DNA of 27,882 bases from a virus. The stretch lies in the IMG/VR virus record IMGVR_UViG_3300032435_000062, positions 1 to 27,882 of that record, one strand, 5' to 3'. Every line of letters starts with the position of its first letter. Positions within the stretch are counted from its first letter, which is position 1. Position numbers and translations under genes: made by a program. The notes beneath the pieces were generated by a model that did not search any database, was not told where the DNA came from, and was given only the letters and a program-made list of their open reading frames with translations. Positions 4,197 through 7,459 of the stretch are shown in pieces.

Positions 4197-4515
4197 TCTT
4201 GAATATTTTTTAGCATTAAGAGTGAGAGTTGGATTTGATTTTGAAGGTACTTTATCAGCAAATGCAATACAAACAATTACCAATCAATTAATAATTGCTG
4301 GAGGTACTGAAGTTTATATTATATCCTCATTAGATAATGCAGCTTCTTTATATTCATTATCACTTAAATTTGGTATACCAATGACAAGAGTATTTGCAAT
4401 GGGTAGTGATGAAGAAAAGATAAGAAAAATAAAACAATTGGGTATAAACATATTTTTTGATGCTAACCAATCAATAGTTAATAAGTTACCTAATATAGGA
4501 AGAAGGTTAAACTAA
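4186..4515 (+). CDS. HAD-superfamily-like protein
   Basis: A 109-residue protein with the order of motifs of the haloacid dehalogenase fold: VGFDFEGTLS (nucleophile Asp18; motif I is usually DxDGT), VYIISS (motif II, Ser47), Lys78 in SDEEKIRKI (motif III), and NIFFDAN (motif IV, Asp92). The second motif I Asp, the usual general acid/base, is Glu20. Motif IV has one Asp, and no cap domain is present. A minimal HAD phosphatase would act on small phosphate compounds or DNA ends; catalysis may be weak or lost. It sits directly between the terminase subunits, and the large subunit ATG follows the stop with no gap. The fold is well supported; substrate and activity are unknown. Confidence 0.6.
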   Translation: MENNLEYFLALRVRVGFDFEGTLSANAIQTITNQLIIAGGTEVYIISSLDNAASLYSLSLKFGIPMTRVFAMGSDEEKIRKIKQLGINIFFDANQSIVNKLPNIGRRLN

Positions 4516-6513
4516 ATGGAATTACAATTAAAAACCACCAAGGTATTCAGTAAAAATTATGATGCATTATATAATAGTCAAATCAGATTTATTGTTAATC
4601 AAGGCGGAACTCGTAGCAGCAAAACTTACAGTCTATGCCAAATGTTAATTGTATATGCTCTACAAAATAAAAATAAAAATAAAACAATCTCAATCGTACG
4701 TAAAACATTTCCAGCTTTAAGAAGTTCGGTTATGAAAGATTTTTTTGAAGTGTTAAGAGATTTAAATATTTATGATGAAAAATACCACAATAAAACTGAA
4801 CACATTTATAAATTTCCAAATGGCAGTACTATATCATTTTTCTCATTAGATGATGCACAAAAAGTGAGAGGTAGAAAACACAGTATAGTGTGGTGCAATG
4901 AAGCAAACGAGTTAACCTTTGAAGATTTTAATCAATTAAATTTTAGGTGTGAAGAGAAGATGTATTTCGATTTCAATCCATCAGACACTGAGCATTGGCT
5001 ATATGGTATAATAGATAGGGAAGATGCAATTAAAATACATTCAACCTACAAAGATAACAGTTTCCTTCCAAAATCGCTTATAAAGCAAATAGAAGAGTTA
5101 ATACTTGTTGACCAAGATTATTATAATATCTATGCTTTAGGGTTACCATCTAAATCAACTCACACAGTATATAACCATCAACAATTTTATTCAGTTAGAC
5201 CAGAATGTAAAGAAACAATTCTTGGTTTGGATTTTGGCTTTACGCATCCTTCAGCTTTAGTCAGATGTGATTTTAGAGAAAATGAAGTATATGTAAAAGA
5301 ATTGATTTATGAAAGTTATTTAACAACACCAGAACTAATTGAAAAAGTAAAAGAAAAACTAATTGAAGAAGGTTTATTAACTTCACAGCTTATTGTTTGT
5401 GACTATGCTAGACCCGAAATCATCAGTGAGATGAATTCTGCTGGACTGAATTGTGTTAATGCTATCAAGAATGTAAAGGAAGGAATTGATGCTGTTAAAT
5501 CAAAAGTATTTTTTGTAGATGAAACCTCATCAAATATCAAAAAAGAACTGGCCAACTATAAATGGAAATCTCAAGGTGAAAGAATTCTTGAAGAAGTTAT
5601 TAAACAATGGGATGATGCTTGTTTTGTTGGAGATACTATGATTACAACTATAAATGGTCAAGTACCAATGAAAGATATAATAGTTGGTGATATGGTATTA
5701 ACATCACAAGGTTATAAAAAAGTATTATTAAAACATAATAACGGAACGCATCTAGTATCAAAATACTCTTTACTTTCCGATACTAATTTAGTATATTTAA
5801 CTTGTACTAATAATCATAGAATAAAAACAATAGAAGGATGGACGGAGATTTCAAAATTACAATCGGAACAGACAATTTACCAACACAAACATTTAACGGA
5901 AGAACATATAAATTATATCCCAACCGAAAATATTTCACACAACACAAACATCATATGCACCAACAAGTTTGGGAATTTCATAATGGACCAAGAAAAAAAG
6001 GTTATCACATCCATCACATCAACGAAAACAGATGGGATAATAGAATTGAAAACTTGGAAGAAAAAGAAGCGTCTAAACATTTATCTGAACATTCAAAAGA
6101 AAGATGGGATAATAAAAGTGAGGAATCTAAAAAGGAATTTCATTCAAAAGGTATTGAAGCAGCAAAGATATGGCATAAAAGTGAAGAGGGTAAACAATGG
6201 CACAGTGAACACGGTAAAAAATCTTGGATTAATAGGGTTAAAACCATTAAACAATGTGAACAATGTGGAAAAGAATATGAAACTCACATTCCAACCAGAA
6301 GTAAATACTGCCATAACAACTGTAAAGCTAAAGCACTTAGAGCAAGGAGAAAGCTGGATGGAGGAAGTGTATGATTTAACTATCGAAGATTGTAGTGAAT
6401 ATTTTGCTAATAATGTATTAGTACATAATTGTGATGCTGTTAGATACGGTGTGTTATATTATAAAAGAAATAATACCCAAGCTAATTTTGAATTTGTTTC
6501 ATTTACTTTTTAA
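4516..6513 (+). CDS. terL: Terminase large subunit interrupted by an intein
   Basis: An ORF of 665 residues that would give a 395-residue packaging motor and nuclease after removal of a 270-residue intein. N-extein: Walker A-like GGTRSSKT (30-37) and Walker B HSIVWCNEANE (122-132, with Asn128-Glu129 at the catalytic end). The RuvC-like nuclease has Asp239 (LGLDFGFTHP) and Asp296 (LIVCDYARPE). The third Asp is in the C-extein motif CDAVRYG (639-645), immediately behind the intein. Splicing would join WDDA to CDAVRYG, restoring the conserved motif III. The enzyme would translocate DNA into proheads with ATP and cut it. Only 27 residues follow the intein. Until splicing, the nuclease site is split, so packaging depends on splicing. 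Confidence 0.9.
   Translation: MELQLKTTKVFSKNYDALYNSQIRFIVNQGGTRSSKTYSLCQMLIVYALQNKNKNKTISIVRKTFPALRSSVMKDFFEVLRDLNIYDEKYHNKTEHIYKFPNGSTISFFSLDDAQKVRGRKHSIVWCNEANELTFEDFNQLNFRCEEKMYFDFNPSDTEHWLYGIIDREDAIKIHSTYKDNSFLPKSLIKQIEELILVDQDYYNIYALGLPSKSTHTVYNHQQFYSVRPECKETILGLDFGFTHPSALVRCDFRENEVYVKELIYESYLTTPELIEKVKEKLIEEGLLTSQLIVCDYARPEIISEMNSAGLNCVNAIKNVKEGIDAVKSKVFFVDETSSNIKKELANYKWKSQGERILEEVIKQWDDACFVGDTMITTINGQVPMKDIIVGDMVLTSQGYKKVLLKHNNGTHLVSKYSLLSDTNLVYLTCTNNHRIKTIEGWTEISKLQSEQTIYQHKHLTEEHINYIPTENISHNTNIICTNKFGNFIMDQEKKVITSITSTKTDGIIELKTWKKKKRLNIYLNIQKKDGIIKVRNLKRNFIQKVLKQQRYGIKVKRVNNGTVNTVKNLGLIGLKPLNNVNNVEKNMKLTFQPEVNTAITTVKLKHLEQGESWMEEVYDLTIEDCSEYFANNVLVHNCDAVRYGVLYYKRNNTQANFEFVSFTF
5620..6429 (+). 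other. Intein in the large terminase (residues 369-638)
   Basis: The Hint-type splicing domain is visible at both ends. The N-terminal block starts at Cys369 (CFVGDTMITTINGQVPMKDI) with the typical IVGDMVLTSQGYKKV. Block B is LTCTNNHRIKTIEGW, with TxxH-type Thr and His. At the C-terminus, VYDLTIEDCSEYFANN is followed by VLVHN, and Cys639 is the +1 residue. Cys1, the terminal His-Asn and Cys+1 are the residues needed for standard protein splicing. The middle 170 residues or so, in this frame, look like no known endonuclease and are Lys/Asn/Thr/Ile rich. They coincide with an HNH gene in the -1 frame (5838-6374). Confidence 0.9.
5838..6374 (+). CDS. HNH homing endonuclease nested out of frame within the intein
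   Basis: A 178-residue protein in the -1 frame relative to the terminase/intein. Residues about 20-75 are a clear HNH endonuclease of the HNH_3 type: FNGRTYKLYPNRKYFTQ, VWEFHNG, KGYHIHHINENRWDNRIENL (His-His, then Asn-rich, then Asn). A Lys/Glu/His-rich helical stretch follows. A C-terminal zinc-ribbon-like CEQCGKEYETH and KYCHNNCKAK end it. The ATG lies within the Gly-Trp codons (GGATGG) of the intein block B. The stop lies within the codons of VYDL in the C-terminal intein block. An in-frame stop at 5817-5819 bounds the frame upstream. It would cut intein-less terminase genes to spread the element. How it is translated is unclear. Confidence 0.75.
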   Translation: MDGDFKITIGTDNLPTQTFNGRTYKLYPNRKYFTQHKHHMHQQVWEFHNGPRKKGYHIHHINENRWDNRIENLEEKEASKHLSEHSKERWDNKSEESKKEFHSKGIEAAKIWHKSEEGKQWHSEHGKKSWINRVKTIKQCEQCGKEYETHIPTRSKYCHNNCKAKALRARRKLDGGSV

Positions 6514-6552
6514 TATTTATTTTTCAATTTATTGGTCGTTTCAAAAGTTTCA

Positions 6553-6568
6553 TACTATTTATATTTAA
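6553..6568 (+). promoter_or_regulatory. Candidate late promoter before the second sigma-like gene
   Basis: TACTATTTATATTTAA, nearly the same as the motif at 3540-3557, in the 87-base gap after the large terminase. An ATTG about 21 bases upstream could act as a -33 element. Confidence 0.35.
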
Positions 6569-6600
6569 ATAATAACAATTACATTAAATAAAAAGTAAAA

Positions 6601-7215
6601 ATGAAATTAAACTATAAAAAAATAATTGATGAATTTATAAAACAAAGATACGCTTACTTAATTGAATGCAGTACTAATATATTAAAACAAAATAAAAGTT
6701 TATCACCCGAAGATTTAGTTAGTGAATTATGTATATATTTATATACCAATAAAGAAAAGGTAACAACATTTATTAATATGAATAAGTTGGAAGCGTTTGC
6801 AGTAAGTTGGATGAATATTCAAGGAAGATATAAAACATCACCAATCAATAAAAAATACGCTAACAATTTTGATGACATAAATGATTTCACAGAATACGGA
6901 TTAGATACCACAAACTTTTCAGATACAATTGATAAAAGTGATTATGAAAATGAATTAGCTTTAAGTTTTAATGATGAACAAATAGTTAAAATTCTTAAGA
7001 TAAAAAATGTTAAAAACTTATTAAGTAAATCAGAACAAATATTATATAATGCTTATTTTATAGAAAATTTATCTTATGATAAAATAAAAATTAAATATAC
7101 ATTTTACAGAGTTATTGATGGTAAAAGAATTAATTACAAAAGTAAGAACTCCATTTATCAAATGATGAAAATAATGAAAGAAAAAATAAAATACTATATA
7201 AATGATAATAATTGA
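6601..7215 (+). CDS. Sigma-like protein, divergent
   Basis: A 204-residue protein with a sigma-factor-like plan. Residues about 33-75 (LSPEDLVSELCIYLYTNKEK, then LEAFAVSWMNIQGRY) resemble region 2. Residues about 140-200 (LLSKSEQILYNAYFIENLSY, later SIYQMMKIMKEKIKYYI) resemble region 4, with an inserted basic loop (KRINYKSKN) before the last helix. It is more diverged than the factor at 2173 and may be a late-acting sigma, an anti-sigma-like decoy, or a DNA-binding protein that kept only the fold. It follows the terminase after a promoter-like motif, and its end overlaps the next gene by 14 bases. Confidence 0.5.
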   Translation: MKLNYKKIIDEFIKQRYAYLIECSTNILKQNKSLSPEDLVSELCIYLYTNKEKVTTFINMNKLEAFAVSWMNIQGRYKTSPINKKYANNFDDINDFTEYGLDTTNFSDTIDKSDYENELALSFNDEQIVKILKIKNVKNLLSKSEQILYNAYFIENLSYDKIKIKYTFYRVIDGKRINYKSKNSIYQMMKIMKEKIKYYINDNN

Positions 7216-7459
7216 ATTAGCTTGTCTAAGCTTCTTATTTGTTAACGCTGAACCTCTGATACTATTCAAGAGGTTTTGTGGTTACAGAGAGGAGCAAATG
7301 CATACATATAGCAAAATAAAACAATTTATACATAAATTAATTTACTGTTGTTTATGTTCTGCGTTTTGGATTGGATTAATATTTACTGGTTCAATTTTAA
7401 AAGCAGCATTAATATCAGTTTTAGCCGAAATAATATCAAAAATAAATAACAGATTATGA
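7202..7459 (+). CDS. Small membrane protein with a CCLCSAFW motif
   Basis: An 85-residue protein with a hydrophobic N-terminus (IELACLSFLFVNAEPLILF) and a second hydrophobic pair at about 45-75. The motif YCCLCSAFWIGLIF (Cys-Cys-x-Cys, then Phe-Trp) leads into the latter. The C-x-C...W arrangement in a membrane helix resembles DUF1360-like phage and sporulation membrane proteins. This type is often found between terminase and tail genes in Bacteroidota phages. The start overlaps the previous gene by 14 bases, and the stop overlaps the next ATG (ATGA). Function is unknown; a structural or membrane-modifying role is possible. Confidence 0.55.
   Translation: MIIIELACLSFLFVNAEPLILFKRFCGYREEQMHTYSKIKQFIHKLIYCCLCSAFWIGLIFTGSILKAALISVLAEIISKINNRL

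Follow-up and report, generated by a model that had tools for sequence, protein, structure and literature searches.

The analysed window, the whole 27,882-nt stretch of IMG/VR virus record IMGVR_UViG_3300032435_000062, carries a large terminase (TerL) gene of 665 aa whose reading frame has no interrupting stop, including across a contiguous intein in which a second gene is embedded out of frame (Table 1). The intein sits in the C-terminal nuclease-domain motif of TerL, NH^xxDAxRY, where the junction in the window departs from the family norm by having WDDA rather than NH before the intein; the intein-free TerL of locus L123 (WDDL^CDAMRY) aligns with the window C-extein. All splicing residues are present (Cys1, block B Thr63-x-x-His66, His269-Asn270 and the +1 Cys), with Thr63 and His66 invariant across the intein alignment and the +1 residue either Cys or Ser in relatives. 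The model of the intein matches many solved inteins in Foldseek, including gp41-1, DnaB and RecA (E down to 5e-7, TM(target) 0.7-0.8), of which gp41-1 is the closest by profile. Phage group I introns commonly carry HNH genes, and it can be envisaged on such general grounds that the insert is a group I or II intron removed at the RNA level, with only an incidental resemblance to Hint. That reading is barely credible in view of the complete Hint fold, the conserved splicing residues and the absence of any Rfam match to a ribozyme core in 4500-7300 at E<=1.

Table 1. Features of the terminase-intein locus in the window, and of the split relatives
Feature	Position	Strand	Evidence or remark
Large terminase (TerL) gene with contiguous intein	4516..6513	+	Terminase_3 PF04466 E=1.3e-29; TIGR01547 E=5.8e-42
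TerL N-extein, 368 aa	4516..5619	+	Intein-free relatives align through the junction
Intein, 270 codons, Cys1 to His269-Asn270	5620..6429	+	Intein HMM blocks; AF2 and Foldseek Hint fold
Hint N-terminal half, residues 1-91	5620..5892	+	AF2 pLDDT 86-97; profile match to gp41-1 intein 6qaz, E=1.6e-15
A-rich leader of the HNH start, no Shine-Dalgarno	5818..5837	+	A at -3, -6, -11 to -15, -18
HNH homing-type endonuclease gene, 178 aa, -1 frame relative to TerL/intein	5838..6374	+	PF13392 HNH_3 E=2.8e-13; phrog_15471 E=7e-20
Intein-frame linker, residues 92-230, DNA shared with HNH core, predicted unfolded	5893..6309	+	AF2 pLDDT <50
HNH_3 catalytic motif (HIHH...N...H)	5952..6074	+	Pfam match to residues 39-79
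CxxC...CxxxC zinc-binding-like C-terminal part of HNH	6255..6323	+	Invariant C140, C143, C158, C162
Hint C-terminal half, blocks F and G, residues 231-270	6310..6429	+	AF2 pLDDT 82-96; TIGR01443 intein_Cterm
TerL C-extein (CDAVRY...), +1 Cys at 6430	6430..6513	+	Aligns with intein-free TerL
Split TerL with HNH between the halves	L038 455-2771; L092 445-3805; L271-L290

The embedded gene is a complete HNH ORF in the -1 frame, as a sequence-only reading of the locus had proposed, and its two ends are formed from conserved intein codons in the way claimed there: the ATG consists of the block B codons GGA-TGG (Gly73-Trp74) read out of phase, and the TGA arises from the Tyr-Asp codons of block F, 58 nt short of where the intein ends. 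The catalytic residues H59, H60, N68, N72 and H81 of the HNH motif are invariant. In AF2 models, for which alignments comprised the window and selected loci with phage-collection rows left out, the HNH frame folds with a mean pLDDT of 89.6, and its best Foldseek match, albeit weak, is the homing enzyme I-HmuI (prob 0.63, E=0.09). Comparison of the HNH profile with the PDB returned only two weak matches, both to very large multi-domain proteins, which we took as chance. The folded Hint is overlapped only by the ends of the HNH gene (about 19 N-terminal and 22 C-terminal codons), and the HNH core shares its DNA with a linker for which the models predict no structure. Being a single ORF, the intein is not of the split type, with IntN and IntC in separate ORFs; nor is it a canonical large intein with the endonuclease in frame in the same polypeptide, as the HNH lies in the -1 frame here and in all nested relatives.

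We classified 24 of the 25 first relatives and then about 100 loci from a profile scan. Wherever an HNH lies between Hint-N and Hint-C, the intein is in the HNH+1 frame with zero stops, and this nested layout recurs in at least 58 sequence clusters and at least 108 distinct HNH DNA sequences without a single intein-frame stop; the cluster counts are lower bounds from the matches listed per scan, and most relatives are metagenomic. An HNH-independent scan was run with the last 59 residues of the intein of locus L008 plus its C-extein as query; the Hint N-block alignment was too divergent for scanning the collection. All 59 complete inteins among the matches listed carry an HNH in the same shifted frame, none of the 59 lacking it, one further intein that is ended by a contig edge has the same layout, and 20 loci are intein-free. 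Among all loci searched, no HNH was found in the intein frame or in the +2 frame. Two of the three observations that would have overturned the sequence-only reading, relatives with an in-frame HNH or a pair of indels that place it in frame, are thus not borne out: 108 distinct sequences keep the frame open, which rules out sequencing error as the cause of the shift. The nested form is also present, with the HNH unannotated, in the cultured Tetrasphaera phage TJE1 and Acinetobacter phage Highwayman and in the Rhodobacteraceae phage LS06 genome. Separately, Brevundimonas phage Poludnitsa has an unannotated HNH ORF of the same family (2423-2995) between terL and portal.

An open second frame might reflect chance, error or decay, with only one of the two products of consequence, and in GC-rich relatives (e.g. 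L031, L093 and L110) such a frame is indeed expected. The sequence-only reading had put the odds of 178 stop-free codons below 1 in 10,000 from base composition; this figure comes from an unsuitable test, because the HNH protein by its nature has few codon pairs that would create a stop in the intein frame. We therefore held the HNH protein fixed and either redrew its synonymous codons from local usage or permuted each gene's own synonymous codons. For the window alone, redrawing predicts 5.5 intein-frame stops where none is observed (0 of 4000 redraws were as low), and permutation gives only p=0.006 for the open frame. Across the 58 nested clusters no stop occurs, where redrawing predicts 268 and permutation 135, whereas 13 non-nested relatives have 65 stops against 54 or 64 expected, respectively. 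Conservation of the open frame across the overlap, as the sequence-only reading required, hence goes far beyond chance; with 108 distinct sequences in agreement and both products folding confidently in their own domains, the reading of chance, error or decay is hardly tenable for the window and is refuted at the family level. By comparison with the +2 frame of the HNH family, which contains 20-30 stops in AT-rich loci, the +1 frame is naturally stop-poor, a scarcity that may explain why it was this frame that could be opened.

Substitution rates were compared in both frames, for few pairs and by a simple counting method. In 11 independent close pairs, dN/dS is about 0.19 for HNH and about 0.56 for the intein frame at HNH-changing sites, and stop-creating changes number 0 against 5 expected; a larger, non-independent set of pairs agrees with these rates. 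Close pairs were chosen because multiple hits in divergent pairs (<90% identity) overcount stop changes, and more divergent pairs yield 0.34 (0.23-0.43) for HNH and 0.81 (0.56-1.05) for the intein frame. The linker residues 92-230 come out as near-neutral in the intein frame. As far as such sequence counts can tell, HNH is under purifying selection and the overlapped intein peptide is under little, except against stops. The earlier inference that both frames are selected is borne out by the stop counts and dN/dS values; over the HNH core, however, the intein frame is mainly kept stop-free, with amino acids that look close to neutral.

The HNH start itself resembles the other gene starts of the window. 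Only 2 of 29 window genes have a 4-nt Shine-Dalgarno core, about the random rate, so that these genes do not use Shine-Dalgarno sequences, and their leaders are A-rich, with A at -3 in 86% of the 29; A-rich leaders without Shine-Dalgarno sequences are typical of Bacteroidota phages. The score of the HNH ATG leader falls among those of the window's own gene starts and is reached by 5.4% of 552 other ATGs, and the leader has A at each of the positions -3, -6, -12 and -13 at which A promotes initiation in Flavobacterium (PMC6847099). The start codon is ATG in 29 of 29 canonical inteins, although the amino acid ahead of Trp differs among them (Gly, Glu, Lys, Ser, Thr or Ala); A occupies only a third of TerL third-codon positions, though the HNH ATG is kept. 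In other lineages a strong Shine-Dalgarno sequence stands at good spacing before the HNH start (TAAGGAGG in L112, AAGGAGG in L107, GGAGG in L029 and AAGGAG in L119). The HNH might instead be reached by -1 ribosomal frameshifting out of the intein frame, producing a TerL-HintN-HNH fusion, as an A-rich stretch encoding IKT (ATA/ATT AAA ACN) lies just 5' of the HNH start in many relatives and a slip anywhere within the first HNH codons would likewise yield a fusion. We regard this as improbable because of the stops in the HNH frame directly upstream, which in most canonical relatives precede the ATG by 0-6 codons and in L008 abut it; moreover, IKT stretches with ATT for Ile read TAA in the -1 frame, and both the invariance of the ATG amid varying surrounding codons and the strong Shine-Dalgarno sites of other lineages count against it.

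Occupied and empty alleles of the insertion site occur side by side. The TerL genes of L008, with an 807-bp intein, and L252, which is intein-free, have flanks that are 90% identical over 899 bp and 89% identical over 197 bp, with an exact junction at which the +1 residue is Leu when empty and Cys when occupied; 17 other intein-free alleles complete the comparison. Many other TerLs, those of window relatives L120-L146 included, are also intein-free at the same site. The intein-free TerLs nearest to that of the window are 66-69% identical to it; the near-identical empty-site pairs come from relatives and not from the window. The Acinetobacter phages Highwayman and BP10 were considered as an empty-site pair and rejected, their TerLs being too different. 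Conversely, intein and HNH can share about 70% identity when the TerLs that carry them share only 27-29%. Taken together, the near-identical alleles with an empty site and the similar inteins in distant TerLs indicate, on comparison of sequences alone, that the element is mobile. A different role has to be considered for the enzyme, namely that it is a packaging-associated phage nuclease which happens to be stored in an intein: packaging HNH proteins of the HK97 gp74 type occur beside terminase and portal genes, and the non-nested relatives of the present HNH likewise adjoin such genes. We consider this role unlikely, given a Pfam assignment to HNH_3, a best (if weak) structural match to I-HmuI, the presence of HNH in every one of the 59 inteins found without an HNH query alongside many close TerLs that lack both, and the joint movement of intein and HNH across distant TerLs.

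We favor, with a probability of roughly 85%, the reading that the locus is a mobile intein in the TerL nuclease domain whose homing endonuclease is a separate overlapping gene and not part of the intein protein. The anatomy, its conservation, selection on both frames, the mobility pattern and the empty sites are observed; splicing, internal initiation with separate translation, cleavage and homing are inferred, in the absence of protein, ribosome or DNA target data. In the proposed mechanism, the TerL frame would be translated straight through and the Hint domain (residues 1-91 and 231-270) would fold, cut itself out along with the unstructured 140-residue linker, and ligate the exteins. Ribosomes would start independently at the ATG in the block B Gly-Trp codons, through an SD-free A-rich leader in the window lineage and a Shine-Dalgarno sequence in others, to make the 178-residue HNH enzyme, which would cut intein-free TerL alleles and so allow the whole 810-bp element to be copied in.

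The same components occur in two other layouts. In Lactobacillus phage CL2 (L038) and about 20 IMG/VR loci, TerL-IntN, the HNH gene and IntC-TerL-C are separate ORFs, as expected of a split intein (L038, L092 and most of L271-L290). The CL2 annotation lists a 482-aa TerL and the HNH, and misses the IntC-TerL C-terminal ORF (2487-2771). In all split loci except L275, IntC lies in the HNH+1 frame with its ORF opening inside the HNH ORF, as in nested inteins, while the frame of IntN varies. Seven relatives in the split-type subgroup are contiguous mini-inteins without HNH, and L296 (671-1769) is a contiguous intein of this subgroup with the HNH nested out of frame, which may mean that nesting arose independently there or that this locus connects the forms. 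In L111 (1168-3642), TerL has a contiguous mini-intein and the HNH is a separate gene just downstream. The layouts interleave with few changes in HNH trees, whose deep branches are weakly supported and which are unrooted. With the overlap between HNH 3' end and IntC fixed at +1 in nested and nearly all split loci, loss or gain of stops in one of the frames would interconvert contiguous and split forms; we judge the odds to be even that the nested, split and adjacent forms represent phases of a single system and pass into one another. If so, they would provide a direct DNA-level route to the origin of split inteins, with splicing uncoupled from endonuclease expression. As a side observation, L092 has a second, contiguous intein at the TerL Walker A (445-2958, ending HHN^TGKT), and hence one terminase with both a whole and a split intein.

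Inteins are textbook one-polypeptide mobile elements, with the endonuclease normally in frame with the splicing domain. Fractured genes, in which split inteins have a homing endonuclease gene between their halves, were reportedly described by Dassa et al. in 2009, as, it is said, was the gp41-1 intein. They resemble the present system in that a gene of its own, placed between IntN and IntC, encodes the endonuclease, and the window Hint is nearest to gp41-1; they differ in that the window halves are joined by an uninterrupted frame that traverses the endonuclease gene. The literature searched, from which subscription papers were excluded, yielded no description of an intein whose endonuclease is encoded in a different frame. 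The closest described case is the ShiLan element (Arsenault, Gosselin and Gogarten 2025, PMC11855218), in which a mycobacteriophage DNA methylase gene harbors an HNH in a shifted frame. ShiLan, and likewise the Pacc40 gp60 insertion, shares with the TerL inteins an out-of-frame HNH, an insert open in the host-gene frame and a scattered, homing-like distribution. ShiLan has no splicing domain, however, its insert is thought to be retained in the methylase, and its HNH starts with GTG, whereas the TerL intein encloses its HNH in a complete Hint domain and is inserted in a terminase nuclease domain. The earlier remark that no characterised example was known therefore needs a correction, as an out-of-frame HNH inside a phage gene has this precedent, albeit one without an intein splicing domain. 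The dCTP deaminase intein of cyanophage CL131, which spliced in E. coli (PMC6293099), similarly combines HintN and HNH_3 in one insertion in a phage gene, but as one polypeptide in one frame, unlike the window HNH with its own start and stop in the -1 frame. Mycobacteriophage TerL inteins, some with active homing endonuclease, have the same kind of host gene but occupy seven sites in the N-terminal ATPase domain (PMC5050341) and not the C-terminal nuclease-domain motif used in the window.

Overall, these loci form a large, widespread family in which splicing and endonuclease functions are encoded in different frames, so that their expression can be changed separately while DNA linkage is kept. 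They provide a long, conserved same-strand gene overlap with a function assignable on each side, and a selfish element whose codons are under constraint from the gene that hosts it. Endonuclease genes of this kind are hidden from annotation, as in phages TJE1, Highwayman and LS06, where the records name only TerL, and the accompanying split-intein sister group makes the origin of split inteins testable. Elsewhere in the window, the gene that follows terL (6601-7215) matches no Pfam family, and 2173-2754 is a phage gene with a sigma-70 region 2 (PF04542, E=5.7e-9).
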